Source: Bacteroidaceae bacterium
GTDB taxonomy: Bacteria; Bacteroidota; Bacteroidia; Bacteroidales; Bacteroidaceae
NCBI GenBank assembly: GCA_017470425.1
Contig: JAFUYT010000035.1
Span: forward strand, 1-43,654
DNA: 43,654 nucleotides
Direction of reading: 5' to 3'
Shown piece by piece: positions 21,169 to 38,900 of this stretch. The position numbers and the translations under genes are program-made. The notes beneath the pieces are model-generated. The model ran no database searches and was not told where the DNA came from. It saw only the letters and a program-made list of their open reading frames with translations. Within the stretch, counting starts at the first letter, position 1. The number at the start of each line of letters is the position of its first letter.

Positions 21169-23859
21169 ATGAAGAAACTGATGTTAAGGAAAACTTCTCT
21201 TGTATGCCTGGGGCTGTTCCTGGGTATGGGGCACGCAATGGCTCAACAGGTGGCCATCGGTTTCCGTTCTACCGACGGCAACTACTGGAAGATGCAGACT
21301 GAGACGCTTGTAGAGACCACGGAAGCAGCGGATGTCACGATTCGTAGTGACCAGCCGGCACAGACCTTCAAAGGGTGGGGCACCTGCTTCAATGAACTCG
21401 ACTACGAGGCATGGAACCTGCTCTCGGAGGCCGACCGCACGCTGTTCATTAAGCGTGCCTTCAACCCGGACGGTGACCTGCGCCTGACCGTGGGGCGCAT
21501 CCCCGTGGGTGCCTCGGACTATGCCTGCGACTGGTATTCCTGCGATGAGACACCCGGTAACACCGAGGACTTCGCGATGGAGCACTTCACCATCGAGCGC
21601 GACCTACAGCGCATCATCCCCAGCATCCGCCTGGCACAGGCCGAGCAGCCCGCGATGACGTTCTGGGCATCGCCCTGGAGCCCGCCGCAGTGGATGAAGA
21701 AGAACAAGCACTATGCGCAGGCCATCACCAGCACCAATGGCAACACCGAGGCCTTTCCGCCCTTGCAGCGCGACCAGTTCGTGGAGGACGAACGCTACTA
21801 CCACGCCTACTGCCTCTACTTCGACCGCTTCATCCAGGCCTACGCCGAGCAAGGCATCCCCATCACGGGGCTGGCTTATCAGAACGAGGCCTATTCCAAC
21901 ACGCCTTATCCGGGCTGCTCGTGGCTGTCTGCCACGACGGGCAAGTTCCTGGCCGAGTACCTCGGGCCGTACATGGCCGAGCACCAGCCCGACGTGACCC
22001 TCATCGCTGGCACCTTCAACACCAACCGATGGGATGTATTCCAGACTATCCTCTCGACTCCCGGCATCGACCGCTATGTGCGGCAGGTGGGCTTCCAGTG
22101 GGAAGGTCGCCAGCAGGTGGCCGCCGTGCGCTCGACATGGCCGCAGTATGAGTTGGTGCAGACCGAGAGCGAATGTGGGGGTGGCACCTTCGACTGGGGA
22201 GCAGCCGTGCACACCTTCGAGCTCTGCAACCACTACCTTTCCAACGGCATCACGACCTACACCTACTGGAACGCCATCCTCAAGGACGGCGGCTACAGCA
22301 CGTGGGGCTGGCGGCAGAATGCCCTCGTGCAGGTGAACAGCGCAGCTCGCACGGCTTACTACACGCCCGAGTACTACGCTTACAAACACTACACCCACCT
22401 GATTCCTGTGGGCTCGAAGATCCTGCAGTGCGACCCGTCGCGCCTGCTCGTGTCGGCCCTCCGGCCCGATGGCAGTGTGGTTGTCGTCATCGGCAACGAC
22501 AGCGGTAGCGACAGGGAGCTCAGCATAGACATCGACGGCCAGCTCCTGCACGCCACGCTACCCGCCAATTCCTTCTCCACCTACCTCTGCGGCGCGGAGG
22601 GCACCGTGGCCGATGTCCTGCGGCAGGAAGCCAGCGGGCTCTGCCATATCGAGCGTGACTTCCTCACTGAAGAGCAGTATGCCCAGCTCTCCGACGCCGT
22701 CGATGCGGGCGGCTATGATGCACTCCTCAGCGCGCTCCAGGGCGTGCTGACCGGCCACGGCACGCCGACCTTCACGCCTTCGGCTGAGCTCTACCAGCCC
22801 GTGGCCGCAGGAAGCTACTTCCTCTATGACATCACGGCCGGTAAGTTCCTGGGGCAGGTCGCGGCCGGCGCAGAGGCGAATCAGCCCCGTCTCGCCTCCG
22901 CTCCCGAGCGCATCGCCCTCAAACAAACTGCAAAGGGCTACACGCTCCGCTTCGAGAACCGCCCCACAGCCAGCGGTTATCTGAAGCTGGGTGTCTATAA
23001 CGGTCAGTACGCATGGGCCGACGGCGCTGCCACCTCCACCTACTGGACGCTCGCGGCAGACGACACGCACACGTTCACCCTCACGGCAGAGGCCGGCCAC
23101 TACACGCTGGGCAGCGGCGAGCAGCTCAGCGGGGCGTGGTATCTGGCAGGGACGAACGTGAGTAACCGTGCTGACGAGGCCCACCGCTATGCGCTCATCA
23201 GTATCGCAGATTATATCCGCGAGACACAGAATGCCACACCGGCCCTTCTGGGAGCAGCCACGGGCAGCGATGTCACCTCCGGCTGGCTGCGCGAGAAGAA
23301 CAGCGCCAGCGGCTATGCTGAACAGCAGCCGGCCATCAGCTCCTTCTTCTACGGGGGCTACGGCATCAGCCACTGGGCTGCCAGCCCGCAGACCAACGCG
23401 CGCATCATCTATCAGCAGGTAAGCGGTCTGCCTGCAGGCACTTACACGCTGACCGTCTTCGCCGCCGCCACCTTGTGGAACAACAACAATGGGGGTGACA
23501 ACCGCGAGGGCATCAGCCTCTTCATGGGCGACGGTGCCGCCACTGCGGCCACTCCCGTCACCACGGCGCAGTATGCGCCCTACACCCTCACCTTTGACCT
23601 CAGCGAGGGGAATACTTTGCAGCTCGGCCTGCGCGCTGAAGCCGTCAACGGCAATAACTGGGCGTTCCTGGCCGATGTCCGTTTGGCCTATCAGGCTCCC
23701 TCCCAGCCCGACGCTATCCACGCGATGAATCCGGGCACCGTGGAGGACGGGTCATGCTATGACTTGAGCGGTCGCCAGTGGGCGGACAGTCTGACAAGTC
23801 ACAACGTCCGCCACAAAGGTATTCTCATCAGGGGCGGTCAGAAGTTTGCCGTGCGATGA
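21169..23859 (+). CDS. GH30 family glycoside hydrolase with binding modules
   Basis: This 896-residue protein starts MKKLMLRKTSLVCLGLFLGM with signal peptide cleavage near AMAQ. The GH30 barrel (~45-420) has the family's entry motif (FKGWGTCFNELDYEAW), the acid/base in YQNEAY (E240) and the nucleophile in QTESECG (E333). A beta-sandwich side domain follows (~425-480). Then come a 'SYFLYDITAGKFLGQ' module (~540-690), a jelly-roll module (GLPAGTYTLTVFAA, NGNNWAFLADVRLA, ~710-845) and a T9SS-like tail (YDLSGRQ...KGILIRGGQKFAVR). GH30 members cleave beta-1,6-glucan, beta-1,6-galactan, xylan or glucosylceramide. The neighbouring GH2, GH51 and GH78 genes make a plant arabinogalactan target plausible, but the subfamily is undetermined. 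Confidence 0.88.
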   Translation: MKKLMLRKTSLVCLGLFLGMGHAMAQQVAIGFRSTDGNYWKMQTETLVETTEAADVTIRSDQPAQTFKGWGTCFNELDYEAWNLLSEADRTLFIKRAFNPDGDLRLTVGRIPVGASDYACDWYSCDETPGNTEDFAMEHFTIERDLQRIIPSIRLAQAEQPAMTFWASPWSPPQWMKKNKHYAQAITSTNGNTEAFPPLQRDQFVEDERYYHAYCLYFDRFIQAYAEQGIPITGLAYQNEAYSNTPYPGCSWLSATTGKFLAEYLGPYMAEHQPDVTLIAGTFNTNRWDVFQTILSTPGIDRYVRQVGFQWEGRQQVAAVRSTWPQYELVQTESECGGGTFDWGAAVHTFELCNHYLSNGITTYTYWNAILKDGGYSTWGWRQNALVQVNSAARTAYYTPEYYAYKHYTHLIPVGSKILQCDPSRLLVSALRPDGSVVVVIGNDSGSDRELSIDIDGQLLHATLPANSFSTYLCGAEGTVADVLRQEASGLCHIERDFLTEEQYAQLSDAVDAGGYDALLSALQGVLTGHGTPTFTPSAELYQPVAAGSYFLYDITAGKFLGQVAAGAEANQPRLASAPERIALKQTAKGYTLRFENRPTASGYLKLGVYNGQYAWADGAATSTYWTLAADDTHTFTLTAEAGHYTLGSGEQLSGAWYLAGTNVSNRADEAHRYALISIADYIRETQNATPALLGAATGSDVTSGWLREKNSASGYAEQQPAISSFFYGGYGISHWAASPQTNARIIYQQVSGLPAGTYTLTVFAAATLWNNNNGGDNREGISLFMGDGAATAATPVTTAQYAPYTLTFDLSEGNTLQLGLRAEAVNGNNWAFLADVRLAYQAPSQPDAIHAMNPGTVEDGSCYDLSGRQWADSLTSHNVRHKGILIRGGQKFAVR

Positions 23860-23870
23860 AAGAGCATTGA

Positions 23871-23895
23871 AAGGCCTCCTGCTGAAGGAGGCCTT
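23871..23895. terminator. Bidirectional terminator between convergent GH30 and GH78 genes
   Basis: AAGGCCTCCT-GCTGA-AGGAGGCCTT gives a perfect 10-bp stem followed by TT, only a few bases from both stop codons. It probably serves both strands. Confidence 0.85.
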
Positions 23896-23905
23896 TTCGT
23901 ATCGT

Positions 23906-26900
23906 TTAGCGTTTGGCGAACTTCTTGCCGCCCGCGATGTAGATTCCTTTTTGGAGGTTCCGTGCGGAGTGCGCAGAGAGGAAGGAATCTACAGAGGAAC
24001 TGATCCTCTGTCCGCTGAGGGCGTACAGCGCGCCTGACCCGGGTAGCCCGATTGCCTCACCGGCAGCCGTGATGCCGTCGCCCTCGCCGAGGGTGAAGCT
24101 GTAGTCGCCTGAGCCGACGATGACCTGTGTCTCCGTGGTGCCGTAGGTGACGCTGACGATGCCGCGCGTGCCAGCGCTGATGGCCGTGCCGTCCTCCTTC
24201 AGCACCATCCCGTCCGTGGCGGGCAGGATGAGGGTGGCTTCGGTGCCTGCGGGAACGGAGAACTGGAAGCGGTAGCCGCCGGTCGTCCGCTGCCAGGCCG
24301 AGCGGATACGGCCGTAGATGCACTCGGTGGCGATGTCGCAGTTGTTCAGGTCCGCGGGAATGTATGGAGCAATTCTTATTGTCCATTCTTCGGAGTTTCG
24401 AGGCGTCCTTTCGCCGAGCGGTTCATTGTCCATTATCCAACTGATTCCGCCGAGCTGTGTGTAGAACCATTCCTCGATGTGGTCCATCATGCAGTGGTTC
24501 TGCGAGAAAGCGCCCACGTCCCAGTACTCGGGCGTAGTGGTATAGCCTTGGCGCACCCAGTAGCCGTAGCTGGGACAGTCGGTCTGGTTGGCCATTTGCC
24601 AGACGATGTCGTTGTAGCCGTAGCGGGCCAGCGACATGAAGATGCACTTCAGGGCAATCTCGCCCGACTTCACCTTGTAGCCGTCGTTCTTCACGGCCTC
24701 GGCCAGCACGGCCGCCACCTCCGCCTCGTCGCCCTCGGGCACCAGCCCGTAGTAGAGCGGCTGTGCCTGCTCGCTCTGTCGGCCGCCGCCACCGCTGACG
24801 CTGGTATAGACGTGGGTCTCGGCGTTGTAGTACTTCGCGTTGAACGCTGTGCGTACGTTGGCCGCGAGGGTGGTGTAGGCCGTGGCGTCGGCATCGTGGC
24901 CGAGAGCCGTGGCCATCTCTGCCATCGCGCGCAGGATATAATAATAGGTACAGGTCTCGGTGAAGCCCGTCGGCACGAGTGGCGACACGCCCGCCGTCTC
25001 CTGGCCCCAGTCGCTGAGGACGCTGAACGAGTCGTTGATGATGTAGCCTGTGGTGTTGTCGGTATAGTGTTGGACGAGGCGGCACATCTGGGCGTAGTAC
25101 TTCGTCATGAGCGACGCGTCGCCGTAGTACTTCCAGCCCCGATAGGGCACGAGGATGGCCGCGCCGCCCCAGTTGACATCGTCGCCATAGACGTTCATGT
25201 AGTAGGGCGCTACGGAGGGCACGTGGCCGTCGGCCTGCTGGGCATCGAAGCAGTCGAGGACTACTTTATTGTAGAACGACTGCATGTCGAAGTTCGCGTT
25301 CAGCGAGACATACATCTCGTTGGGCACGTCTAACCACCCGAGCTTCTCGCGGTGGGGACAGTCGGTGATGCTGTTGTAGAGCTGCGAGGCGATGGCGTCG
25401 CGGCAGATGACGTGGATGTCGTTGATGAGGGCGTTGGAGGTCTCGACGGTTCCGATGTTGTCCATCGCCGAGCGGATGCGCAGGGCGGTGAACTGCTCGG
25501 GCTGCGGTTCCTCGTCGAGGCCGATGATCTGCAGGTAACGGAAACCGTGGTACATGAACTCGGGTCCCCACTCCTCTTCGTCGCTGCCCGCGAAAGTGTA
25601 TGTCTCGTAGGTGTCGGAGGGGCCTGTATAATAGTTCTCCATATACACCGAGCCGTCGGCGTTCAGGCTCTCGCCGCAGCGCAGGGTGATGGTCTGTCCT
25701 GCCTTGCCCCGCAGGCGGAAGCGGTACTGCCCGGCGAAGTTGCGGCCGAAGTCCACCATCCGCAGTGTGTAGCCCCCGCTCTGGATGGTCTTCACGCTGA
25801 CCGCCTGCCATTCCTCCACGACCTTCAGTGGCTCATACATGCGGCTGCGCAGTGTGCCGAAGCCGCTCACACCCGAGTGCGGGCTGGTGAACTTGGGCGA
25901 CGTGAGGAGGGAGAGGCCCCCCGTGGCCCCCCAGTGGGGGGCATTGGTTGGCTGTTCATCCCCCGCCGGGGGATTATAGGGGGCTGCATCATAGTCCTCC
26001 CCACCCCACCAGTTGCTGCCCAGCGTGGGCGAGGGTGCTGTCTGCCAGGTGGCATCGGTCACGATGCGCTCGCTGGTGCCATCGGTGTACTCGATGAGCA
26101 GTTCGGCCAGCAGACCTGTGTCGCCGTTGTTGCGCACCTCCCCCTTCGAGAAACGGTCGGTCAGGTATTCGATGTTATAGATGCCGCCCGCTACCTGCGC
26201 GAGGATGGTATTCGTACCCGTGCGCACGAGGTCAGTCACGTCGTAGGTGGAGTAGAGGATGGTCTTCTCATACTCGCTCTCGCCAGGCTCCAGCACGGCA
26301 TCTGTCACGGGGCTGCCGTTGAGCTTCATCGTGAACACGCCGAGGGCCGAGGCATAGATGCGGGCGCGGGCAATGGTCTTGCCGTCGGCGACCGCGAACT
26401 GTTTGCCGAAGTAAGGAACATGGTAGCGTTCGGCCGCTTTCGTGTAGGCTGCGGCGTAGGTGCGGCCGTCCGTCGAGGTCTGCACGGTGAAGGCCGCGGG
26501 GAAATTGGCCGCGATGTTGGCGGCCATGCCCACGGCGTGGTCGTTCTGTCGGGGGTAGAGCATGATCTTCGTCACCTCCTTGGCTGTGCCCAGGTCGGCG
26601 GTGATGGTGACGGGCGTGGCCACGTTCTGCTGCGTCGTCCATCCGTTGCGGCTGTCGGTGCCGCTCTTCAGACCGTCGTTGATGTAGCTGAGCGACCATC
26701 CGTAGCCCTGTAGCTCCCAGGTGTCAGCGCTCTTGCCGGCAGAGAAAGTGGCCGAGCGCGCTACGTTCTCGTTGCCGGCGTAGATCTCCACTTCTGCCAG
26801 CTGGGCGAACGAGTAGCCTGCGTCCGTCGAGGCGCGCAGTCCCAGCTCGGTGATGTTCAGCCGGAGGTAGCGGCACGTGATGGGTTCATTGAACTCTATC

Positions 26901-27370
26901 ACCAGCGGGTCGAGCGTCTGGTGGGCGATGCCCTCAGCGTGGATCCATTGTGCCGTCCACTCCGATGGCGAGAGAAAGGCCGTCTCGAACGTCGAGGTGG
27001 TGGCGGCGGTCTGGCCGAGGTTGTCGGTCACGGTGAGTGTCCACGTGTAGGCGGTGCAGCTCTGCAGGGATGTGCCACCGTAGGCGATGCCCGTCTGTGC
27101 GGACGAAGCGACGGTGCCCGAAGACCACATCTGTGTGCCGTCAGCCCTGACCACGGTGATGGCGTAGCTCGTCTGGCGACAGCCGCGTTCGCTGCTATTC
27201 AGCCTCCAGCTGAATGTAGGCGTCGGTGTGTCGATTCCCAAGGGAGCGGTGAGTGATTCCACCCGCAGGTTTGTCAGCGAGAGGGAGGCCGTGGCGCGGA
27301 GGGCGAAGCCCACGAGGAGCACCGCCGTCAGCAGCACTCTTGTCAGTGAGAAGTTCGTAGAAAATTTCAT
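23906..27370 (-). CDS. GH78 family alpha-L-rhamnosidase
   Basis: This 1154-residue protein starts at MKFSTNFSLTRVLLTAVLLV with a signal peptide. The earlier frame start at 27406 falls inside the promoter. It has an N-terminal FN3-like domain (LRVESLTAPLGIDTPTPTFSWRL), an inserted discoidin-like module (WELQGYGWSLSYINDG...GWTTQQN, ~155-270) and GH78 N-terminal sandwiches. The (alpha/alpha)6 catalytic domain (~640-990) has the acidic cluster TDCPHREKLGWLD (D670, E675, D681), which matches the family motif. A C-terminal sandwich and a T9SS-like tail (LSGQRI...LQKGIYIAGGKKFAKR) end it. It should release terminal alpha-L-rhamnose from pectic or arabinogalactan chains. Three repeat elements are translated in it (23939-23992, 24375-24440, 25915-25984). 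It is divergent from the fused regulator gene. Confidence 0.9.
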   Translation of the reverse strand: MKFSTNFSLTRVLLTAVLLVGFALRATASLSLTNLRVESLTAPLGIDTPTPTFSWRLNSSERGCRQTSYAITVVRADGTQMWSSGTVASSAQTGIAYGGTSLQSCTAYTWTLTVTDNLGQTAATTSTFETAFLSPSEWTAQWIHAEGIAHQTLDPLVIEFNEPITCRYLRLNITELGLRASTDAGYSFAQLAEVEIYAGNENVARSATFSAGKSADTWELQGYGWSLSYINDGLKSGTDSRNGWTTQQNVATPVTITADLGTAKEVTKIMLYPRQNDHAVGMAANIAANFPAAFTVQTSTDGRTYAAAYTKAAERYHVPYFGKQFAVADGKTIARARIYASALGVFTMKLNGSPVTDAVLEPGESEYEKTILYSTYDVTDLVRTGTNTILAQVAGGIYNIEYLTDRFSKGEVRNNGDTGLLAELLIEYTDGTSERIVTDATWQTAPSPTLGSNWWGGEDYDAAPYNPPAGDEQPTNAPHWGATGGLSLLTSPKFTSPHSGVSGFGTLRSRMYEPLKVVEEWQAVSVKTIQSGGYTLRMVDFGRNFAGQYRFRLRGKAGQTITLRCGESLNADGSVYMENYYTGPSDTYETYTFAGSDEEEWGPEFMYHGFRYLQIIGLDEEPQPEQFTALRIRSAMDNIGTVETSNALINDIHVICRDAIASQLYNSITDCPHREKLGWLDVPNEMYVSLNANFDMQSFYNKVVLDCFDAQQADGHVPSVAPYYMNVYGDDVNWGGAAILVPYRGWKYYGDASLMTKYYAQMCRLVQHYTDNTTGYIINDSFSVLSDWGQETAGVSPLVPTGFTETCTYYYILRAMAEMATALGHDADATAYTTLAANVRTAFNAKYYNAETHVYTSVSGGGGRQSEQAQPLYYGLVPEGDEAEVAAVLAEAVKNDGYKVKSGEIALKCIFMSLARYGYNDIVWQMANQTDCPSYGYWVRQGYTTTPEYWDVGAFSQNHCMMDHIEEWFYTQLGGISWIMDNEPLGERTPRNSEEWTIRIAPYIPADLNNCDIATECIYGRIRSAWQRTTGGYRFQFSVPAGTEATLILPATDGMVLKEDGTAISAGTRGIVSVTYGTTETQVIVGSGDYSFTLGEGDGITAAGEAIGLPGSGALYALSGQRISSSVDSFLSAHSARNLQKGIYIAGGKKFAKR
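23939..23992. repeat. Inverted repeat inside the GH78 secretion signature
   Basis: GTAGATTCCTT and its exact reverse complement AAGGAATCTAC bound a 54-bp segment. It is translated between the two conserved halves of the C-terminal signature (LSGQRI and LQKGIY). Confidence 0.65.
24375..24440 (-). repeat. 58-bp interspersed element, copy 2 (inside the GH78 gene)
   Basis: On the minus strand it reads TGGACAATG...CCGCTCGGC...CGAAGAATGGACAAT, matching the copy at 18441-18500 but translated in a different frame (MDNEPLGERTPRNSEEW). Confidence 0.75.
25915..25984 (-). repeat. 70-bp GC-rich inverted element inside the GH78 gene
   Basis: Two hairpin-forming halves face each other: GGCCCCCCGTGGCCCCCC-AGTGGGGGGC and CATCCCCCGCCGGGGGATTA-TAGGGGGC, with a 15-bp spacer. 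It is translated as APYNPPAGD...APHWGATGG. It belongs to the same family as 1691-1843 and 40824-40900. Confidence 0.82.
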
Positions 27371-27403
27371 AGCATGATGAGTTGTTTGGATGATTTCGTG
27401 TTG

Positions 27404-27411
27404 CAAAGGTA
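27404..27411 (-). promoter_or_regulatory. -7 promoter element of the GH78 gene
   Basis: TACCTTTG on the minus strand, 33 bp before the ATG at 27370. Confidence 0.6.
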
Positions 27412-27431
27412 GCGTATGCGATGCGAAATGG

Positions 27432-27507
27432 GGTTCAAAGGTCGTTCAAAAGGGTGAAAAATGGGCTCAAAGGGCCGTCGGCACCATTTTTGAACGCTCT
27501 TTGAACC
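27432..27507. promoter_or_regulatory. Candidate operator: inverted repeat between divergent genes
   Basis: GGTTCAAAGGTCGTTCAAAA (27432-27451) and, inverted, TTTTTGAACGCTCTTTGAACC (27487-27507) match at about 18 of 20 positions. Each half holds two GTTCAAA boxes in direct repeat ~11 bp apart, as AraC-type regulators often bind. A further CTCAAAGG lies between them. It sits between the -7 elements of the GH78 gene and the regulator gene. Confidence 0.5.
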
Positions 27508-27549
27508 AGAAAAGAACCCTCAGCGAACCTGCGAACCTCATTTTTTTGT

Positions 27550-27557
27550 TATCTTTG
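27550..27557 (+). promoter_or_regulatory. -7 promoter element of the double-sensor regulator
   Basis: TATCTTTG matches TAnnTTTG 22 bp before the ATG at 27580. Confidence 0.65.
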
Positions 27558-27579
27558 CAGCGCAATCACTCACAACGCT

Positions 27580-30500
27580 ATGAGACGTACCTCTCTCCTC
27601 CTGCTCCTGCTGACGCTGTTGCACAGTCTCGCGACTGCCGCCACGGACACCCTTGTGACGCGCCTTCTCTCCTCCACCCACGGCGACCTGCCCTGCGACG
27701 AGACTGCCGTGACGCTGCAAGACCGCGACGGCTTCATCTGGATCGGCACGCGCCTCGGCCTATACCGCTATGACGGCTATGCGCTCCAGTCCTACCGCAA
27801 CGACATCGACCACCCGCATCGCTTCACCTCGTGCGACATCAAACAGCTGGCCGAGGACCGCGACGGTGTACTCTGGATAGGCACCTTCCGGGGCGTGAAC
27901 AGACTGGATAAGCGCACGGGCGAGGTGCTGCGCTTCAACGACGGTGACAGCGTGCCCTCGGGCTACACCTGGCAACTGGTCTGCGACCGCGACGGCATCG
28001 TCCGCGCCCGCTCCGACCGCGGGTGGTATGCCTACACTGACGGCCGCTGGCAGCGCACGTCTGAGCCCACCGTGCCGCTCGCGCCTAATGGCAGCGCCGT
28101 GCAGCGCGACCGCGACGGTGCCACGTGGCGTTGTCTGCCCTTCGGTGGCGTGGAACTATCGATGCCGCGCCGCTCGCCGTTCGCGAACGACCGCCTGCGC
28201 GACACGACCGACGCCATTCGTGCCCTGACCGTCGATGCCTCGGGCACGCTATGGGTGGGCACTCAGCGGGGCGATGTCCTGCGCCGCGATGCCGCGACGG
28301 GCGACCTCGTCGCTACCCGCTTCCGCACGATGGCAGGCGAGGACATCAGGCAGCCGCTGCAGGTGAACGCCCTCTGTGCGTTGCCAGACGGTCGTCTGAT
28401 GGTGGGCACTGAGCGCCACGGCCTCTACGCCTGTGCGGCCGACGGTACCGTCCTTATGCACTATGACCGCGCGACGCCGTGGCTGTGCGACAATTGCATC
28501 TATAGTCTGTTGGCCACACCCGACGGCCGCCTGCTCATCGGCACGTGGGCGGGTCTCTCGGTGATGGAGCCCGGTGGGAGCGGCAGCTATATCGCCGCTG
28601 CCGGCACGACGGACCTGCGCCATACGCACGTTCTGAGTATCACACAGACCGCCGCTGATGACTATTGGCTGGGCCTCATCGGAGGTGTCCTGCACCTGCA
28701 AGGGCCGCTCACTACACCTTCACACGCGCGCGCGTTCCTTTATACGTATGTAGGTCAGTCCGCCACCACGCCCGCCAGTGTCGGTCAGAGTGCCGACACC
28801 GACGAACCGGCGAACCCGAACTACCGCATCGGCGGCATCTACCGCATCCTTCGCGATGGCCACGGCGACCTCTGGGCTTGCACCAGTGAACCGGGACTGC
28901 TGCGCTACGATGCTGACAGCGACGCCTTCTGCAGTGTCAGCCGCCAGTTTGGCATCAGCGGCGACAACGTGCGCAGTATGGAGGAGGATGCTGACGGCCG
29001 CCTGTGGATGCTCACCAACTGCGGCTTGGCTTGTCTGGACACCCCGCAGCCCGATGGTGAACGGCCGCTGCACCTCTACACCGTGCGCCACGGCCTGCCG
29101 CGCAACTACTACGGCAACTCCACCTCGTTGTCGCTGGCCGACGGCCGCCTCTGTGTCGCTGCTGGAAGCGACCTCACGGTGCTGACGCCCGCGGAAGCCG
29201 CACAGCGTGTCGGCCCAGCGCCCCACCGATGTCTCGTCACGGACATCACCGTTCAGGGTATATCGCTCTGGGATATGGAGTCGCGTGCATGGCAGCGGGT
29301 GGCCGATGTCCTGCCGCCTTATACGCGCCATGTCACACTGCCGCCTGGTCGCGGCACGCTCGGCATCAGCTTCTCCTCTTTCAACTTCGTCGAGCCCGAG
29401 GCTGTACAGTTTGCCTATCGCCTTGAAGGCATGGAGAATGAGTGGGTGTACCCGCAGGCGGGGGTATCAACAGTGCGCTATGTCAACCTGTCGCCCGGCA
29501 CCTACACCTTCCGTGTCCGCACTACCGATGGCGCTGAGGAGGCACAATTGCGCATCACCGTCTTGCCGCCGCTGTGGCGCCGCTGGTGGGCGTGGTGTCT
29601 CTACGCCCTGGCCGTGCTGGCTGCGGTGGCTTATGTCCGTCGGCGCTGGCAGTTGCGCCGCGAGCGGCTGGAGATGCAACGGCTGATGGCGCTGGAGCGA
29701 GAGCGCAACGAGGAGCTCTCGGCCATCGTGGCACAGCTCGGACGTCAGCAGGGGCAACCCGCACCGACGGGCGTAGAGGTGGCCGAGGCCATCAGCAGCT
29801 ACGACGCCGACTTCTTACGGCGGTGTGACGAGGCCATACGCCAGAACCTCAGCAATCCCGAGTTCGACCAGCAGGCACTCATTGCCGCCGTTGGCACGTC
29901 ACATTCCACACTCTATCGCAAGCTGAAGACCCTGTGTGGCACCGACGCTACCACTTATATCCGCCGCTTCCGCCTACAGACGGCCTGTGAAATGATGCGC
30001 CGCCAGCCTGGCATACGTGTGGCAGAACTGGCAGATGCCGTAGGTTTCTCGAGCCCCAAGTATTTCGCCACCTGTTTCCGCAAGGAGATGGGTTGCACAC
30101 CCACCGAGTGGGTGGCGAAGGGTGGCCTCCACGCTCTCTGCCTGCTGTTCTGCCTGAGTGGTCTGATGTCCCTTCACGCGCAACCCGCCCTGCACATCGG
30201 CACGGCCGAGGGTATGCCTGCCGAGCATGTCGTCTGTCTGGCTGAGGATGGGCGGGGGATGCTATGGATGGGCACCGAAGAGGGGCTGGTGGGCTATGAT
30301 GGCGTGGGCTTCGAACATTACACCACTGAGAACAGCGGCCTTACGGGCAACGGCTTCTCCGCCCTCTGGGCCGACACGCTGACGGGCCGCCTCTGGCTGG
30401 GGCTGAAGAGCGGGCTGGCGGTCATGGATTTGCAGACACGGCGCATCCACCCCTACGAGATTCCCGGTTTCTATAACATTGCCGACCTCGCGCCTGCCGC

Positions 30501-32697
30501 CGACGGTGGCCTGTGGGTGCTGAACATCGAGGACCGCTTCGCACACCTGAGTGCGGACCCCGACGGTAAAACCACCGAGCGCACAGCTGTTGTCTATGAG
30601 ATGGCCGACTTCCAGGGGCTCTACAACCGCCCGACGATGTTGCGCGACCTTGGCGGCGGGCGGCTCAGCGTAGAATCCCCTGTGGGCTGCTGGCTCGTGG
30701 ATGTACAAACGCGCGCCGTAGAGAGCCGACCGCAGCCCGAAGGGTGGGATGACCTGGCGCACCGCCTTCTGCTGACCGACCACAATGGCAACCGCTGGCG
30801 GGGCTCTGCCGGGGGCCTCGAATGTTGGCCGCATCGCCAAAGCGAGTTCCAGTTGTTGCAGGCAGAGGACGGCGGGCAGGACTTCATGGCATCCTCTGTG
30901 CTATCCATGCCCGACACAACCTTCTGGGTGGGCACCTCTGGAAAGCTGTTTCATTATGACCAGGCGGGAAAGCTCTTGCAGTGCTGCCCGATCCGCACAC
31001 CGCAGGGCATCGCCTTGTATCCCTACGTACTCCGTCAGGAGTCTGAAGAGACGTTGCTCCTCGGCACGGAGGCTGAGGGGCTGTGGCGCTTCAACCGGCT
31101 TACCGGACGCCTACAGCAGATTCCTTCGCCGTCCAGTGTCCTGAGCGTCTATGCGCTCCATCGTCAGTCGCATCGCTGGCTGCTTGCCACCAGCGACGGT
31201 GTTTATGAGCTACGCGATGGCGAGAATGGGTTGGAACGGCTCACTGACATGAATCGCGCCCTTCCCTCGCACTATGTTTTCAGCCTGGCCGAGGACGCAC
31301 AGAAGAAGCTGTGGGTGGGCATCTACGGCTCCGGCATCCAGATCTTCGACGCACAGGGCAGGCATCTGCAGAGCTTGAACCCACGTGACACGATACCCGG
31401 CCTGCCGTCCTTCCCGTCGGGCGCCATCACCCATCTGCACTGCGACAGTCATGGGCGAATGTGGGCTGCCACGCTGGAAGGCGTCATCCGTTTCGATGAC
31501 ACCCGCGAGCCTACCCGCTACACACTCTATTCGCTGGGCCACGGGTTGCCCACGCTCTACATCCGTGCCATCGGCGAGGATGGCGACGGGCGCCTTTGGG
31601 TGACCACGAATCGGGGGCTGGTGCGCTTCGATGAGGCGCGGGATGTATTCTGCACCTACCATCGTCCCTCGGGGCTGCCCGGGCGTCCCTTCTGCAATGG
31701 TGCGCTGGCACTGCTTGCCGACGGTCAGATGGCTATCGGCAGCGAGGGCGGCGCTACCCTCTTCGACCCGCAGGAGGCCGCTGAACCGAAACCGCTGCCG
31801 CGCTTGCAGCTGATGAGTTTCATGCTCCTGCGCACCGACCCGCACGGCGCGATGGCGTCGCAGTTCATCCCGCAGGACAGCCTCACCTTCGGCTATCGCG
31901 ACAACACATTCACGCTGACCTTCAGTCTGGCAGATGCCGCGCTTGCGGAGATGGTGGAGTACGCCTACCGCGTAGATGGTGCCGGCGGACAGTGGATCAG
32001 CCTGGGGCAGAGCCCGAAGCTGACGTTGCACAGTCTCGTGCCGGGGAACTATAGCGTGGAGATGCGCGTGCGGCTGATGGGTCAGCCGTGGCCCGAGGAG
32101 GCCGCCTGCACCGTAGCTTTCCGTGTGCGGCCGCCGTGGTGGCTGTCGTGGTGGGCCTATGTGCTCTATGCGATGCTCGCCTTAGGCGTCATTGTGCAGG
32201 TGATGCGCGCCTACCGCCGCCGGTTGGCGTTGGAGAACAACCTGCGCTATGTCATCAGCCTGAACAAAGACCTCAGTGCCCAACTGGCCGAGCGCGAAAA
32301 TGCGGCCATGCAACCTGCACAGGCTCAGGACACCCGCGAGCAGGAAATGCCTGTATCTACCATCTCCAAGGCCGACCAGGCACTGCTGGATAAGCTCAGC
32401 CGCATCATCTTCGACAATCTCGACAACCCCGAGCTGGACATCGACTTGCTCTGTGACCGCATGGCCATGTCGCGTTCCACGCTCTACCGCAAGGTGAAGA
32501 ATATGCTGGGTATGTCCACGAATGAGTATATCCGCATGGTACGGCTCGATGAGGCTGCACGGCGCATCGCCCACGGCGACCTCACGGAGCAGACCATTGC
32601 GGCCATCGCCGGGGACTGCGGTTTCAACAGTCTCAGCTACTTCCGCACCTGCTTCAAGGAGCGTTTCGGTGTCACGCCCAGCGAGTACGGGAAATGA
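27580..32697 (+). CDS. Tandem-fused membrane sensor regulator: two propeller/Y_Y_Y/TM/AraC units in one ORF
   Basis: A single 1705-codon frame begins with a signal-peptide-like segment. Unit 1 has a Reg_prop beta-propeller (~25-580, repeats such as DRDGFIWIGTRLGLYRYDGY), a Y_Y_Y domain (~585-660), a TM helix (~666-690), a short coiled linker and an AraC-type HTH (~743-845). A hydrophobic junction follows (~850-867). Unit 2 has a second propeller (~870-1430, DGRGMLWMGTEEGLVGYDG), Y_Y_Y (~1434-1518), TM (~1520-1545) and a second AraC HTH (~1603-1705). This is the sensor and output layout of Bacteroidetes hybrid two-component systems, but no histidine kinase, ATPase or receiver is visible in either unit. 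The periplasmic propellers probably sense an oligosaccharide and the HTHs bind DNA near the membrane. The likely target is the divergent GH78 gene and neighbours. Confidence 0.87.
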   Translation: MRRTSLLLLLLTLLHSLATAATDTLVTRLLSSTHGDLPCDETAVTLQDRDGFIWIGTRLGLYRYDGYALQSYRNDIDHPHRFTSCDIKQLAEDRDGVLWIGTFRGVNRLDKRTGEVLRFNDGDSVPSGYTWQLVCDRDGIVRARSDRGWYAYTDGRWQRTSEPTVPLAPNGSAVQRDRDGATWRCLPFGGVELSMPRRSPFANDRLRDTTDAIRALTVDASGTLWVGTQRGDVLRRDAATGDLVATRFRTMAGEDIRQPLQVNALCALPDGRLMVGTERHGLYACAADGTVLMHYDRATPWLCDNCIYSLLATPDGRLLIGTWAGLSVMEPGGSGSYIAAAGTTDLRHTHVLSITQTAADDYWLGLIGGVLHLQGPLTTPSHARAFLYTYVGQSATTPASVGQSADTDEPANPNYRIGGIYRILRDGHGDLWACTSEPGLLRYDADSDAFCSVSRQFGISGDNVRSMEEDADGRLWMLTNCGLACLDTPQPDGERPLHLYTVRHGLPRNYYGNSTSLSLADGRLCVAAGSDLTVLTPAEAAQRVGPAPHRCLVTDITVQGISLWDMESRAWQRVADVLPPYTRHVTLPPGRGTLGISFSSFNFVEPEAVQFAYRLEGMENEWVYPQAGVSTVRYVNLSPGTYTFRVRTTDGAEEAQLRITVLPPLWRRWWAWCLYALAVLAAVAYVRRRWQLRRERLEMQRLMALERERNEELSAIVAQLGRQQGQPAPTGVEVAEAISSYDADFLRRCDEAIRQNLSNPEFDQQALIAAVGTSHSTLYRKLKTLCGTDATTYIRRFRLQTACEMMRRQPGIRVAELADAVGFSSPKYFATCFRKEMGCTPTEWVAKGGLHALCLLFCLSGLMSLHAQPALHIGTAEGMPAEHVVCLAEDGRGMLWMGTEEGLVGYDGVGFEHYTTENSGLTGNGFSALWADTLTGRLWLGLKSGLAVMDLQTRRIHPYEIPGFYNIADLAPAADGGLWVLNIEDRFAHLSADPDGKTTERTAVVYEMADFQGLYNRPTMLRDLGGGRLSVESPVGCWLVDVQTRAVESRPQPEGWDDLAHRLLLTDHNGNRWRGSAGGLECWPHRQSEFQLLQAEDGGQDFMASSVLSMPDTTFWVGTSGKLFHYDQAGKLLQCCPIRTPQGIALYPYVLRQESEETLLLGTEAEGLWRFNRLTGRLQQIPSPSSVLSVYALHRQSHRWLLATSDGVYELRDGENGLERLTDMNRALPSHYVFSLAEDAQKKLWVGIYGSGIQIFDAQGRHLQSLNPRDTIPGLPSFPSGAITHLHCDSHGRMWAATLEGVIRFDDTREPTRYTLYSLGHGLPTLYIRAIGEDGDGRLWVTTNRGLVRFDEARDVFCTYHRPSGLPGRPFCNGALALLADGQMAIGSEGGATLFDPQEAAEPKPLPRLQLMSFMLLRTDPHGAMASQFIPQDSLTFGYRDNTFTLTFSLADAALAEMVEYAYRVDGAGGQWISLGQSPKLTLHSLVPGNYSVEMRVRLMGQPWPEEAACTVAFRVRPPWWLSWWAYVLYAMLALGVIVQVMRAYRRRLALENNLRYVISLNKDLSAQLAERENAAMQPAQAQDTREQEMPVSTISKADQALLDKLSRIIFDNLDNPELDIDLLCDRMAMSRSTLYRKVKNMLGMSTNEYIRMVRLDEAARRIAHGDLTEQTIAAIAGDCGFNSLSYFRTCFKERFGVTPSEYGK
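30112..30180 (+). other. Internal signal-peptide-like junction between the two sensor units
   Basis: After the first HTH the frame continues VAKGGLHALCLLFCLSG..., ending SLHAQ. From V845 (a GTG codon) this reads like a normal N-terminal signal peptide, with a basic start, a hydrophobic core and cleavage after A867. The first HTH end (TPTEWVAK) lines up with the true C-terminus of the second (TPSEYGK). It therefore looks like two tandem genes fused by loss of a stop codon. The segment must cross the membrane to place propeller 2 outside. Confidence 0.7.
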
Positions 32698-32722
32698 GTA
32701 ATGTGTGGGGAGGGGAGAAGGC

Positions 32723-33193
32723 TTACTTCTCGATAAGGCAGACGGCGTAGGCTGAGATGCCTTCTTCGCGGCCGGTGAAGCCGAGGCGCTCGGTCGTGGT
32801 GGCCTTGATGCTCACGGCATCGGGGTCGATGCCCATGACGTCGGCCAGACAGGCCTGCATGGCGGGGATATGTGGATTCAGCTTGGGGCGCTCGGCGCAG
32901 ACGGTGGCGTCGATATTGCCGACGCGGTAGCCCTTCTCGGCAATCAAGGCAATGGTCTTGCGGAGAAGGATCTTGCTGTCGATGCCATCGGTCTCGGCGG
33001 CGGTGTCGGGGAAGTGGTAGCCGATATCGCGCAGGTTCGCGGCGCCGAGGAGGGCGTCGCAAATGGCGTGGATGAGCACGTCGGCGTCGGAGTGGCCGAG
33101 GAGGCCAAGGGTGTGGTCAATGCGGATGCCGCCGAGCCACAAGGGGCGGTCGGGGACCAGCTGGTGGACGTCGAAGCCGAAACCGATGCGCAT
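32723..33193 (-). CDS. ispF: 2-C-methyl-D-erythritol 2,4-cyclodiphosphate synthase
   Basis: This 156-residue protein is the usual length for IspF. It shows the metal ligands D8 and H10 (GFDVHQL) and H42 (HSDADVLIHA), the FPDT loop and the C-terminal KATTTERLGFTGREEGI motif. It converts the CDP-methylerythritol 2-phosphate intermediate to the cyclodiphosphate in the cytoplasmic MEP pathway of isoprenoid synthesis. It lies 36 bp downstream of porV on the same strand, so the two are probably cotranscribed. It converges on the regulator gene with a 25-bp gap. Confidence 0.97.
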   Translation of the reverse strand: MRIGFGFDVHQLVPDRPLWLGGIRIDHTLGLLGHSDADVLIHAICDALLGAANLRDIGYHFPDTAAETDGIDSKILLRKTIALIAEKGYRVGNIDATVCAERPKLNPHIPAMQACLADVMGIDPDAVSIKATTTERLGFTGREEGISAYAVCLIEK

Positions 33194-33229
33194 GGGATGT
33201 TTAAAGTTTAAGGTTTAAAGTTATAACGA

Positions 33230-34420
33230 TCAACGACGCTTCCTCCCAAACAAATCCTTCATGCCGTCGAGGTCGAAGCCGAGGGTGAAGCGCATGGTCT
33301 GGTCGAGGGGATTGGACTGGGCGGTGGAGAACACGTAGGAGGCGTCGATGGAGAAGACGCTCATCTTGAAGCCGGCACCGGCGGTGATGTACTTGCGGTT
33401 ACCTTTGTTGGCGGCCTCGTCGTGGTAGCCCACACGGACGAAGAAGCGGTCGTTGTAGCTGTACTCAGCACCGATGCTCCACTGGATTTCCTGTAACTCT
33501 TCCTTAAAGCCGTTGGGGGCGTCGTGGAAGCTCTTGAAGATACCGGCGATGGGCGAGACGTCGTAGTACTCGCGCTGCACGCGGTCGGTGTAGTCGTTGT
33601 CGCTCTCGTCGGCTTCCTTCTTCGGGTAGGTAGGTACGAGCATCTTATTGGCATCGGCGGAGATGGAGAGGCGGTTGTACTCGTCGAACGGGATTGTCAG
33701 GTTCAGACCCAGGCGCAGGTTCGTGGGGATGAACTCCGAGTTGTCGTCGCCGCCGTAGCTGATCTTGGAGCCGATGTTGGAGATGTTCAGACCGAAGGCC
33801 CACTGGCACTCGTGGTTGCCCATCATGAAGTAGTTGTTGTAGTAGAGGGCGATGTCAGCGGCGAAAGCCTTACCAGCGGAGCTCTCGGAGGTGTAGTCGT
33901 AGGTGATGTCGGAATAGATGAAGCGCATACCTACGCCCATCGAGAAGTAGTCGGAGAGCATACGCGAGTAAGCGGCATCGACGGCGAACTCATAGGGCTT
34001 GATGGTCATACCCTCGATGGCGGAGCCTGCCTCGTTGTCCCAAAGCGACACCTCGCCGAGCGAGAAGTAGCGCAGGGAGGCGCTGATGGCGGAGTAGTCG
34101 CCGATGCGGTAGAAACCGGCCACGTTGGCCAGGTTGATGTCGCTGACGAGCTTGCGCAACCAAGGTGTGTAGCTCAGGGCTATGCCGGCGCGGCCCACGC
34201 AGAACGGGTACTTGGCAGGGTTCCAGTACTGCGAGTTGACATCGGCCTCAGTGGCGGCGCCCACGTCGCCCATACCGCCGCCGCGGGCGTCGGGGGCGAT
34301 GGACATGGAGGTGACGCTGGTCGTCACGGGGTTGAACATATTCTCCTTGTCCTGTGCGGCAGCGGTGAGGCTGGTCAGCAGGGCAAGCATGAGCAGGGTA
34401 TCACGTGTGAATCTTTTCAT
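33230..34420 (-). CDS. porV: Type IX secretion system outer-membrane protein PorV
   Basis: This 396-residue protein has a signal peptide (MKRFTRDTLLMLALLTSLTAAAQ). Next come the family's N-terminal block (FNPVTTSVTSMSIAPDARGG, GMGDVGAATEADVNSQYWNP) and a FadL-like beta-barrel of alternating strands ending in a basic FGRKRR. PorV (also called LptO) is an outer-membrane shuttle that accepts T9SS cargo and works with the sortase PorU. It lies 46 bp after porU on the same strand, as in many Bacteroidetes, and before ispF. The intact gene implies that the organism has a T9SS, although the translocon genes are elsewhere. Confidence 0.95.
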   Translation of the reverse strand: MKRFTRDTLLMLALLTSLTAAAQDKENMFNPVTTSVTSMSIAPDARGGGMGDVGAATEADVNSQYWNPAKYPFCVGRAGIALSYTPWLRKLVSDINLANVAGFYRIGDYSAISASLRYFSLGEVSLWDNEAGSAIEGMTIKPYEFAVDAAYSRMLSDYFSMGVGMRFIYSDITYDYTSESSAGKAFAADIALYYNNYFMMGNHECQWAFGLNISNIGSKISYGGDDNSEFIPTNLRLGLNLTIPFDEYNRLSISADANKMLVPTYPKKEADESDNDYTDRVQREYYDVSPIAGIFKSFHDAPNGFKEELQEIQWSIGAEYSYNDRFFVRVGYHDEAANKGNRKYITAGAGFKMSVFSIDASYVFSTAQSNPLDQTMRFTLGFDLDGMKDLFGRKRR

Positions 34421-34466
34421 CGTCGGAAAACGTTGGCTACAGATATATAACGTAGCGCTGCCGTTT

Positions 34467-37400
34467 TTATTGCCTTCGGTTGATAATGAGTTTTTGTGCG
34501 GCGGTCGCTTCGCTGCTCTCGTCGCAGGTCACACGAGCGCGGTAGAGATAGATGCCGCTGCCGAGCGGGAAGCCGCTGCCGGTGGTGAGGTTCCAGGGGA
34601 TGGCATAGAAGCCCGTGTCGTTGCTGCCTGACTCGGTGTGGCTCCACAGCAGGCGCCCCGAGAAGTCAAAGACTTCGACCGTGAACTCGCAGACGCTGCC
34701 CGGGCGGTCATACGTGAGCAGGAACTGCGTCTGTGAGCTGGCGGGGTTCTTGGTGGCTGCCAGTTGCACGATGCTCAGCGGCAGACCCGGATCCACGACG
34801 AAGTGGAGGGTGACGGAGTTCGGGTTGTTCAGAAGGTCCCAGGCGCGGAACACCAGCGTGTGCTCACCGGCGCTGAGCGCGGGGATGGAGAAGGCCACGT
34901 GGCCGCGTGTGTAGTCGCCGAACTCACCCGTGAAGTAGTCGTTGAGCGTGTAGGTCGTGGCGGGGTTGCCGTCGATGATGAGCTCCAGGTCGTGGCCGAG
35001 TCCGTTGCCGGCGGCGCTGATGCCGTTCTCGTCGGTAATCTCGGCAATGAAGTAGGGCGTGGCGCCGACGGTCTGCCCGTCGGTGAACGTATCGTCGCCC
35101 AGATAGGCCATGATATGGGGACCTTCAGCATTGTCAATGTCAGGCTCGGTGCCGCCGATGAGGAAGTCGTGGCTGTAGCCGTTGGCCTCGGTGTGGCGGT
35201 CGTTGGTGTTGGCGTAGAACACCAGTCGGCCGGCCTCGTTGCTGTAGTGGATATCCACGGGGATGGGGCAGGTGATGTCGAACGTTCCGGCGCGCACGCT
35301 GTCCTGTCCGTTGTAGAGGATCTTGTCGTAGGCGTTGTAGTAGAAGGTGGTGTCGGCGCCGGCGTTGTTGCGGCCCATGATGCGGCTCTCGCTGTCGTAG
35401 AGGCGGGCGGTGAGGACACCCTGGAAGTCGCTGACGCGGTCGCCGGAGCTGTGCTCGATGTGGCCAGTGAAGCGGGCCTTGCCGCCCGCGTGGAGCGTGA
35501 AGTCGTCGGGCAGCTCGCTGACGGCGGTGCCGTTGACGGCGTCGAGGACGACGCGGTTGCCGGGGTTGCCGAAGTAGAGGGCGGGGTCGCCCAGCAGGGC
35601 ATAGTGCAGCCTGTTCTCGCCCGACGGGCTGTTGACCTTGCTCAGTCGCACAGCGTCGCCCAGGCGGTTAGGGGCACCGCTGGCGTCCTTGGCGAAGAGG
35701 GCGCGGCAGAAGGCGTTGTTCAGGTATTCATTCTGATTGGCATAGACGGTGCGCGCGGTGCCGTAGAAGGCCACGGCGGCGCCGTTGGGGTTCAGAAAGG
35801 CTGTCTCGCCGATGTTGGTGGTCTGCGTGTCGAAGGGCATCACGTCGCAGGCCGCCGTCACCCACAGGGGTGCCCGCGGCGATTTGAAGTTGAGGAAGTC
35901 CTCGGTGCGCATCACCATCTCGTGGGAGAGGCAGTAGGTGGCGCCGTGGCCCGTGTAGTTCATCATGAGAGCACCCTCTTCCATCTGCTGGCGGATGAGC
36001 TTCTCAATGAGCGGGTAGCGGTTGCCGCTGGCGGAGGCTACGCGTGGGTAGGCATCCCACATCACCTCGCGCACCTCCAGCTCCGGGTAGTTGCTCTTGA
36101 CGATGTCGGCCACGCGCTTGACCATCTCCAGATGCTGGTTCTTGTCACCGTCGTCGCCCATGAAGCAGACGACGTTCTTCCAGGCTCCGGCGTAGTCGCC
36201 GCGCAGGTAGGTGAGTGTCTTATCGACGGCGGCCTTCGCCTCGGTGATGTTGCGCACGGGGAAGCGGCCCACGCCCAGGTCGGGCTTGTCGGAGGTCAGC
36301 GCGCTGCCCTCGCCGTCGTCGAGGAGGCCGAAGTAGTCTTCCATCACGTAGCACTGGGTGTCGCTCGTGGAGTTCTCGCTCTCGAAGCAGAGCAGGAAGT
36401 TGTCGGGCGAGAGGTTGCGCCAGACCGACGTGCGCATACGGTTGTCCCACGCGCAGTCACCGAAGAGCAGCAGGTAGCGCGGGCGGTCGGCGTTGGTCTC
36501 GGCGCGGTCGTAGAGCATCTTCAGGAAGCGGCGGTAGGCGGTGGCATCGGGTGTGCCGCTGGAGAACTCGTTGTAGATATGGTCGGCGCGGAAGACACCC
36601 ACGCGCAGCCCATCCCACTCGCGGTGGGCCTGTGCCAGGCGCTCTGCCTCGCCGTCGAAGATGCCGCTGGCGGGTGTGATGATGACCATGTCGAGGGTGC
36701 CGGTGGCGTGGAGGTTCTGGTTCCACACCTCACCCACGACGGTGGGCTGCGGGTACGAGGCGTAGGCGTTCACGTTGAAGACCACGTAGCGGTGTGCCTC
36801 GCCGTCGCCTGCCACGACGGCCCGGAAGTGGGGTGTGCCATCGACCGTCGTCAGCGTGCCGCTGATGGCGGCTGCGGGCTGGCCGCGCTCGGCGAGACGC
36901 CAGAGCTGGGGCTGCTGCCCGGAGGCGTAGCTGATGTCGTAGGTGCACGCCTCCTGGTCGCTGCGCGAGAACTGCACCTGCTGTACGCCGCCGTCGAGCG
37001 TCATGGCACCCGTGAATTTTAGTGTCAGGTAGTTCAGACGGGCGTGCTGTCCCTGCGTGGTCGAGATCTGTACGGTGTTGGAGGCGCTCGGAGCCGCTAC
37101 GCTGTAGATCTTGTTCACACTGCTGGCGTAGGAGTAGTCGCCGAGGGCGGAGAGGTTGAAGTTGCCCAGCGCCGCATTGTTGAAGCGCACGGTGGCCGTC
37201 GTGGCGGTGCTGTTGGCTGCCGTGAAGTTCACGGTCAGACGGCCTTGCCCGCCGACGCTGCGGCAGGGGAGCGTCAGCGTGTAGTTGCGGGTGTTGCCGC
37301 GGGCGTAGTCGTAGTCCTCGTAGAGCTGTCGGCCGCCGTGGTACCAGGCGTAGCTCTGCGGGTGGTAAGTGGTGTAGGCGTCGAAGGTAGAGACCAGCGC

Positions 37401-38219
37401 CGTCGCGGTCTCCGAGGAGGAGAGGGTGGGGACGTCGCCCGCAGGCGTAGCGGCTTCCGTGACGAAGTAACAGGCGGCGCGGGCGTAGTGGTTGGGCACG
37501 TGCTCATCGTTCCGCCAGGTGTCGAGGCCGTTGGCGTGGAACAGGTAGCCGTCGGGGACTCGAAGGAGCGTGACCGCCTCAAGGTCGTCGAAGTCCCTGT
37601 CGGCGTCGAGAGCTTCCTTCTGCAGGTGGCCGCCGTAGCCATAGATGCGGATGTTGTCGGGATTCGTGAAACCCATCTCGTTGAGGGCGCTGTAGGTCAG
37701 GTGATGGATGCCGTCGCTCTCCACGCTGATCTTCATCCATCGCCCCGTGGCCAGTACGCTCTCCGAGGCCCAGCGCTGGCTGCCCGCTGCCGCACGGCGC
37801 AGGCGGCGCGCGGCGGTCGCTTTCAGTGTCGGCGTGATCTCCACCTTGCCGCTTAGCAGCTTGTAGTAGTTGCCGTCCCGCACGATAAGGGGCACGAAGC
37901 TGATGTCCAGCACGCCCTCGCCGCGGCTGATGCCCACGGCGGATGTGATCCGCAGGCTGTCGCTGACAGATGCTTCGCTGCCGGGGATGGCGCGCAGGCG
38001 CTCCACCTCGCCCTTCGTGAGCGGTGCCCATTCGGGATAGCGCACACACACGGAGTAGTCGAACAGCCGGTAGTCGGTCTCTAACGGCACCAACTCATGA
38101 TAGGTCGGCACGATGCTGTCGATGCGCAGACGCTCCCAGTCGAACTGCGTAAAGTCCTGTGTGCGGGCTGTCAGGGGCCAGCACATCAGCATGATGAGTA
38201 TGTAGAGAAAATGTTTCAA
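34467..38219 (-). CDS. porU: Type IX secretion system sortase PorU
   Basis: This 1250-residue protein has a signal peptide (MKHFLYILIMLMCWPLTART), an N-terminal beta-rich prodomain (to ~430), a C25 gingipain-like peptidase domain (~530-850) and Ig-like C-terminal domains. The domain has the catalytic pair in NYTGHGATYC (H758) and VTAACDVMPFD (C791), with DLGVGRFPVRN upstream. PorU removes the C-terminal domain of T9SS cargo at the cell surface and attaches the cargo to lipopolysaccharide. Six proteins in this window carry a possible cargo signature. The C-terminus itself resembles a sorting-type fold (EVFDFSGRLLWS...YRARV). It heads porU-porV-ispF. Heptamer-like CAACTAT repeats lie just upstream (38231-38258). 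Confidence 0.95.
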   Translation of the reverse strand: MKHFLYILIMLMCWPLTARTQDFTQFDWERLRIDSIVPTYHELVPLETDYRLFDYSVCVRYPEWAPLTKGEVERLRAIPGSEASVSDSLRITSAVGISRGEGVLDISFVPLIVRDGNYYKLLSGKVEITPTLKATAARRLRRAAAGSQRWASESVLATGRWMKISVESDGIHHLTYSALNEMGFTNPDNIRIYGYGGHLQKEALDADRDFDDLEAVTLLRVPDGYLFHANGLDTWRNDEHVPNHYARAACYFVTEAATPAGDVPTLSSSETATALVSTFDAYTTYHPQSYAWYHGGRQLYEDYDYARGNTRNYTLTLPCRSVGGQGRLTVNFTAANSTATTATVRFNNAALGNFNLSALGDYSYASSVNKIYSVAAPSASNTVQISTTQGQHARLNYLTLKFTGAMTLDGGVQQVQFSRSDQEACTYDISYASGQQPQLWRLAERGQPAAAISGTLTTVDGTPHFRAVVAGDGEAHRYVVFNVNAYASYPQPTVVGEVWNQNLHATGTLDMVIITPASGIFDGEAERLAQAHREWDGLRVGVFRADHIYNEFSSGTPDATAYRRFLKMLYDRAETNADRPRYLLLFGDCAWDNRMRTSVWRNLSPDNFLLCFESENSTSDTQCYVMEDYFGLLDDGEGSALTSDKPDLGVGRFPVRNITEAKAAVDKTLTYLRGDYAGAWKNVVCFMGDDGDKNQHLEMVKRVADIVKSNYPELEVREVMWDAYPRVASASGNRYPLIEKLIRQQMEEGALMMNYTGHGATYCLSHEMVMRTEDFLNFKSPRAPLWVTAACDVMPFDTQTTNIGETAFLNPNGAAVAFYGTARTVYANQNEYLNNAFCRALFAKDASGAPNRLGDAVRLSKVNSPSGENRLHYALLGDPALYFGNPGNRVVLDAVNGTAVSELPDDFTLHAGGKARFTGHIEHSSGDRVSDFQGVLTARLYDSESRIMGRNNAGADTTFYYNAYDKILYNGQDSVRAGTFDITCPIPVDIHYSNEAGRLVFYANTNDRHTEANGYSHDFLIGGTEPDIDNAEGPHIMAYLGDDTFTDGQTVGATPYFIAEITDENGISAAGNGLGHDLELIIDGNPATTYTLNDYFTGEFGDYTRGHVAFSIPALSAGEHTLVFRAWDLLNNPNSVTLHFVVDPGLPLSIVQLAATKNPASSQTQFLLTYDRPGSVCEFTVEVFDFSGRLLWSHTESGSNDTGFYAIPWNLTTGSGFPLGSGIYLYRARVTCDESSEATAAQKLIINRRQ

Positions 38220-38253
38220 TTCTGTATATCTTTAAACTATCAACTATCAACTC

Positions 38254-38874: not shown

Positions 38875-38892
38875 AGTCAGTTCTCTTGCGTG

Positions 38893-38900
38893 CAAAGATA
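38893..38900 (-). promoter_or_regulatory. -7 promoter element of the FAH gene
   Basis: TATCTTTG on the minus strand, 18 bp before the ATG at 38874. It may serve FAH-porU-porV-ispF. Confidence 0.6.

Follow-up and report, generated by a model that had tools for sequence, protein, structure and literature searches.

A single open reading frame in a Bacteroidaceae genome was found to carry two complete sensor-regulator units, each with a Reg_prop propeller, a Y_Y_Y domain, a transmembrane (TM) segment and an AraC-type helix-turn-helix (HTH), and neither with a kinase. The arrangement is best explained, with a probability of about 0.58, as a lineage-specific fusion of two unrelated and already kinase-less regulators descended from hybrid two-component systems (HTCS), which would act as a one-chain, two-sensor activator of a GH78 gene. 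The frame lies in a stretch of 43,654 nucleotides (contig JAFUYT010000035.1), called the window below. In genome G000, a single metagenome-type assembly, this stretch is contig C25.

The frame contains no stop codon within its 1705 codons. Pfam placed nine Reg_prop stretches, two Y_Y_Y domains and two HTH_18 domains on the whole protein, and when each half was scanned separately Reg_prop, Y_Y_Y, HTH_18 and HTH_AraC were all present in both. Each unit thus has the double HTH (HTH_18 plus HTH_AraC) of the AraC/XylS DNA-binding domain. HisKA, HATPase_c and Response_reg were absent from the fused frame in the Pfam search up to E = 1, and a separate scan of the unit 1 linker gave no HisKA up to E = 10. 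A Kyte-Doolittle scan (17-residue window, mean 1.6) gave four hydrophobic segments, at residues 6–22, 670–686, 849–865 and 1526–1542, of which the first and third are read as signal peptides 1 and 2, the latter now internal. The scan is only a rough guide since it misses the signal peptides of the relatives in G034 and G138 and the TM segment of that in G028. Given these four segments, the two sensors would lie on the outside and the two DNA-binding heads on the inside. The fused protein thus has the Reg_prop and Y_Y_Y sensor of an HTCS in both units, presumably in the periplasm, and the C-terminal AraC-type HTH, and it lacks the HisKA/HATPase_c kinase and the receiver; sensor, TM segment and DNA-binding domain with no phosphorelay domain point to a transmembrane one-component regulator. 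These results uphold the earlier note, which had described two propeller/Y_Y_Y/TM/AraC units in one frame and a transmembrane regulator with two sensors, two AraC-type heads and no kinase. The closest solved structures by sequence (3v9f, 4a2l and 3va6/3ott) were deposited as hybrid two-component sensors, and the closest for the DNA-binding part is 12aw. The features are collected in Table 1.

Table 1. Features of the fused frame and its divergent promoter region, in window coordinates.
Feature	Position	Strand	Basis or remark
GH78 alpha-L-rhamnosidase, divergent neighbour	23906..27370	-	Pfam Bac_rhamnosid domains; predicted start
TAnnTTTGC -7-like box of GH78 gene	27403..27411	-	motif match
Inverted pair of 20-nt arms, 18/20 matched, facing both divergent promoters	27432..27507 (27432-27451, 27488-27507)	.	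sequence comparison
Predicted operator, 21-bp direct repeat TTTGAGC...TTTGAAC	27444..27471	-	exact pattern match; spacing common to seven other species
TAnnTTTG -7-like box of regulator	27550..27557	+	30 nt upstream of regulator ATG
Whole fused frame	27580..32697	+	ATG start, 1705 aa plus stop, open frame
Unit 1 (aa 1-848): signal peptide, Reg_prop propeller, Y_Y_Y, TM, AraC HTH, tail VAKG	27580..30123	+	Pfam; alignment with seven GH78-linked relatives
TM1 (aa 670-686)	29587..29637	+	hydropathy scan
HTH_18 number 1 (aa 769-845)	29884..30114	+	Pfam E 7.9e-19, half protein
Junction: unit 1 tail VAKG, then signal peptide 2 (aa 849-865)	30112..30174	+	hydropathy; alignment
Unit 2 (aa 849-1705): internal signal peptide, propeller, Y_Y_Y, TM, AraC HTH	30124..32694	+	Pfam
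TM2 (aa 1526-1542)	32155..32205	+	hydropathy scan
HTH_18 number 2 (aa 1624-1704)	32449..32691	+	Pfam

The earlier note had also treated the missing kinase as unusual and had raised the question of whether relatives keep the fusion. The first idea did not hold up. Distinct frames of at least 300 residues with Y_Y_Y and HTH, taken from the loci in hand, were sorted by the length of the gap between the two domains; 33 of the 99 had a short linker and were classed as kinase-less, a number that includes the window and truncated copies of the same gene, and 66 had a long, HTCS-like linker. Pfam agreed with this sorting in all five relatives scanned (four kinase-less, one HTCS), and both HisKA and HATPase_c were found in the true HTCS of G104. 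Five further kinase-less relatives were scanned by Pfam, and kinase-less single-unit forms occur in at least 24 genomes of the genus and also in other genera of the family. The lack of a kinase is ordinary among such relatives. As to the fusion, no other frame of more than 1600 residues was present among the matches listed in whole-protein searches of four overlapping sets, each counting the window's genome: relatives (61 genomes), genus (139), family (399) and phylum (395). The genus, family and phylum searches used strict cut-offs and few candidates were scored per genome, which may have let a distant fusion escape notice. A query spanning the junction, run against 393 genomes of the order, gave matches on the HTH side, some extending slightly past stop codons, among the matches listed. 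No frame of the 99 but the window's had two HTH units. Among the genomes searched, the two-unit fusion is unique to the genome of the window. Two HTCS genes adjoin each other at L087 and L091, in two near-identical Bacteroidales assemblies.

A tree of 93 sensor rows was built from 27 kinase-less rows (both window units included), 2 HisKA-like rows and 64 HTCS rows, some of which duplicate one another exactly or nearly so. Apart from the window's own genome, 24 genomes of the genus and one named Prevotella record supplied the kinase-less and HisKA-like rows. Separating HTCS from the rest required 7 changes, with starred branches forcing at least 5, and all three states together required 8 changes against a mean of 25.5 after shuffling. 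This suggests several separate switches between kinase-bearing and kinase-less forms; that the direction was kinase loss is an inference, as the tree is unrooted. The tree method was a quick one with no mixture model, both window units carried a letter-composition flag and there was a warning of meeting long branches. Unit 1 clusters with the regulators of G034 and G135 (99*), and the wider set around them includes the full HTCS of G104 and G161. Unit 2 clusters with those of G153 and G028 (100*), apart from unit 1. The two units are 25% identical, and this low identity together with the separate clades and their starred support rules out a tandem duplication. The two units belong to different regulator lineages.

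The relatives of unit 1 are informative about its likely target. Single-unit relatives stand divergent from a GH78 gene in seven species (G034, G135, G543, G740, G587, G567 and G733), the arrangement being found at 2 of 14 loci (G034 and G135) in one set and at 7 of 13 in a second set that repeats both. The other relatives of unit 1 in these sets had no GH78 match alongside, though some of those loci stop at contig ends. The seven GH78-linked regulators are 33–37% identical to unit 1, which by homology corresponds to this single-unit lineage, and the GH78 gene of the window is a likely regulatory target of the fused frame. For that gene the ATG at 27370 is a likelier start than the listed TTG at 27406 because the -7-like box overlaps the TTG. 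In all seven, TM and HTH are separated by some 50 additional residues that include the motif HE[FL][LM]TP, and this stretch is absent from unit 1 of the window. HisKA scored below the Pfam cut-off throughout the seven, with E values of 0.0062 to 0.67 in four whole proteins and no match in three; the extra segment of G034 scanned alone gave HisKA at E 0.0018. Neither ATPase nor receiver was found in the seven by Pfam. On weak profile support, the stretch is read as the degenerate remains of the dimerisation region of a kinase since lost. The loci of these seven HisKA-like remnant regulators, all divergent from GH78, are L120, L142, L171, L172, L173, L174 and L175.

Unit 2 has free-standing relatives in two species, G153 (56% identical) and G028 (51%), each with its own methionine and signal peptide. 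G028 also has another copy of the unit 2 regulator (L116, 8974–10833 of contig C42), which is broken: it has an internal stop and is matched over only part of its length.

The region between the GH78 gene and the regulator was examined for a common operator. TAnnTTTG is taken here to be the -7-like promoter box of both genes. In the window, G034 and G135 the predicted half-sites lie at -60 and -39 from the TAnnTTTGC box. By inspection, GARC half-sites exactly 21 bp apart are present between the two genes in all eight promoters (the window and the seven relatives). A strict operator pattern matched seven of the eight, with 0–3 of 1000 shuffles matching per region; it misses G543, which has ATGAAC for TTGAAC. 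Exact matches occur once each in the genomes of G034 and G135 and twice in G000, the two in G000 reflecting its duplicated contigs. Allowing one mismatch added eight in G000, of which seven fall within a simple repeat on C9; one match came from the reversed control. The half-sites of the window have diverged from those of the relatives. The window is therefore predicted to have an operator of the HTCS type, its direct repeats spaced by about 21 bp.

The same region contains an inverted pair of arms whose 18/20 match was reached in none of 400 shuffles (maximum 17). No other exact copy of the arms was found in G000, three further places matching at 3 mismatches, and a shorter pattern derived from them was absent from the other 138 genomes of the genus. 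Each arm has two TTTGAAC half-sites 11 bp apart. In G543 and G587, which are unfused, GAAC likewise follows 11 bp past the first half-site, so the 11-bp step may correspond to the two helix-turn-helices of one head. A perfect 8-bp tandem repeat, GCGAACCT x2, lies at 27523–27538 near the regulator promoter.

At the junction the codons read TGG GTG GCG AAG GGT GGC CTC CAC, and the VAKG tail of unit 1 runs directly into the signal peptide of unit 2 as G-LHALCLLFCLSGLMSLHA-Q. Compared with the free-standing relatives, the usual methionine of unit 2 is absent. The tail of G567, one of the seven GH78-linked relatives, is VAKG followed by a stop; that of G587 is VAEG, and the remaining five have other letters. 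Given that the window has VAKG followed by signal peptide 2, where G567 stops, the GTG at codon 845 is read as a tail codon of unit 1. The junction looks like the product of an in-frame deletion that removed the stop codon of unit 1, the spacer and the start of unit 2.

Our preferred reading, that of a fusion working as one chain, would proceed as follows. Unit 1 would have been the private regulator of the divergent GH78 gene and unit 2 a separate gene, until the deletion took the stop codon of the one and the start region of the other. The chain would then cross the inner membrane in the order periplasmic sensor 1, TM1, cytoplasmic head 1 and internal signal peptide 2, followed by periplasmic sensor 2, TM2 and cytoplasmic head 2. 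Signalling would be of the one-component type: a rhamnose-bearing oligosaccharide, proposed as the ligand because of the GH78 neighbour, would bind in the periplasm and change the geometry of the sensor, and in a kinase-less chain this geometry alone would control the placement of the heads. The AraC heads would grip the 21-bp direct repeat and activate GH78, and through the inverted copy the regulator gene would probably be activated too. Several points count against the preferred reading. The evidence comes from one assembly, the searches gave no second genome with the fusion, and two in-frame starts close upstream may allow separate translation of unit 2. Signal peptide 2 would hold head 1 within about 5 residues of the membrane, which could hinder DNA binding; unit 1 is without the HisKA-like segment of its seven GH78-linked kin; and the operator half-sites have drifted.

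It is possible that the fusion is real in the DNA and that signal peptidase cuts the protein after the internal signal peptide to give two separately acting regulators. The internal segment retains the form of a signal peptide, including the site between A and Q found in G153 and G028. However, the long cytoplasmic stretch ahead of it may change cleavage.

A decaying gene, to which a chance deletion joined unit 2 and in which one or both heads no longer function, seems unlikely. With only one of the genomes searched carrying the fusion, there is no sign that selection keeps it, and a head pinned close to the membrane and drifted half-sites would also be expected of such a gene. Decay would nevertheless have left full domains, HTH matches above the Pfam cut-off in both halves, an equal third-position GC of 0.78 in each half and the whole length of the frame free of stops.

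The fusion might also be false, a base or assembly error masking a stop or frame change between two adjacent or slightly overlapping genes; we regard this as rather improbable. The sequence comes from a single assembly. The same region is also present on contig C12, which over window positions 1–4592 and 24593–43654 (4593–24592 being outside the comparison) differs from the window only at position 45; the fused frame is identical and the junction open on both contigs but, belonging to one assembly, they are not independent evidence for the junction. An alternative reading frame reaches a stop 20 codons past codon 839, and in the genus, family and phylum searches the relatives sit in shorter frames, among the matches listed. 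The nearest upstream in-frame starts for unit 2 are ATG 837 and GTG 845 (30112), the next in-frame ATG being codon 863 at the end of signal peptide 2. Their position just upstream could allow separate translation of unit 2. Against this, these sole nearby start codons are both inside unit 1, and either is a less likely start for unit 2. No TAnnTTTG box was found within 200 nt upstream of GTG 845. Free-standing unit 2 has such a box at -34 in G153 and a near match only, at -29, in G028, and the absence is weak evidence since only 3 of 11 window gene starts tested have a box within 100 nt. Moreover, unit 1 homology continues in frame up to the tail and the signal peptide of unit 2 carries on in the same frame, no long homopolymer was found at the junction, and a chimeric join falling exactly at an in-frame gene border is unlikely.

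Very improbable is a covalent, built-in heterodimer, in which the fusion would replace the HisKA-like dimerisation part, the two heads of one chain would read the arms and both periplasmic sensors would have to agree before the rhamnosidase gene switches on, as the half-site pattern that might favour it appears also in unfused relatives. The earlier note had raised such a heterodimer, binding two operators, along with the idea that the chain could integrate two sugars.

Elsewhere in the window, a Type I restriction-modification cluster (HsdM, a DUF4062/HATPase_c_4 protein, HsdS and HsdR) occupies 6996–14883 on the plus strand. A 695-residue protein with no Pfam match is encoded at 18716–20803, also on the plus strand, between GH2 and GH30 genes, and has weak kinship to large proteins adjoining regulators in G028 and G068.

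Should the fused chain function, nature would have provided a sensor of two inputs that carries two DNA-binding heads. The fusion may show how sugar-sensing regulators become simplified and rewired. One bacterial family holds full HTCS, regulators with a HisKA remnant, kinase-less single regulators and a two-unit fusion. The stripping of a phosphorelay regulator down to a one-component switch can thus be tested through related proteins and a predicted common operator.

HTCS such as BT4663, named in PMC3878776, and those of PDB entries 3v9f, 4a2l and 3ott have in common with the window the Reg_prop propeller, Y_Y_Y domain, TM segment and AraC-type HTH. Tandem HTCS sites are spaced by an average of 21 bp according to PMC3878776, a spacing also found in the predicted direct repeat of the window. 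The window differs from them in having no HisKA, HATPase or receiver and in carrying two units per chain. According to work cited in PMC11253607, bringing two AraC heads together is enough for activation, and the paper argues that an HTCS must suppress this effect. No description of kinase-less forms or of two-unit fusions was found in the portions available of the open-licence literature searched, including PMC3878776, PMC11253607, PMC3243724 and PMC10766802. The single-unit kinase-less Reg_prop/Y_Y_Y/TM/HTH regulators of the genus and family, for which the searches made gave no name, have the domain order of each window unit, whereas the window fuses two such units. The seven GH78-linked regulators, a HisKA-remnant group for which likewise no name was found in the searches made, have the divergent GH78 neighbour and the operator spacing of the window, but they keep the HisKA-like segment, whereas unit 1 of the window is without it and is fused to unit 2. 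Membrane one-component regulators such as ToxR and CadC resemble the window protein in combining sensor, TM segment and DNA-binding domain in a single polypeptide that lacks a phosphorelay; their sensor and DNA-binding families are different and their orientation is the opposite.
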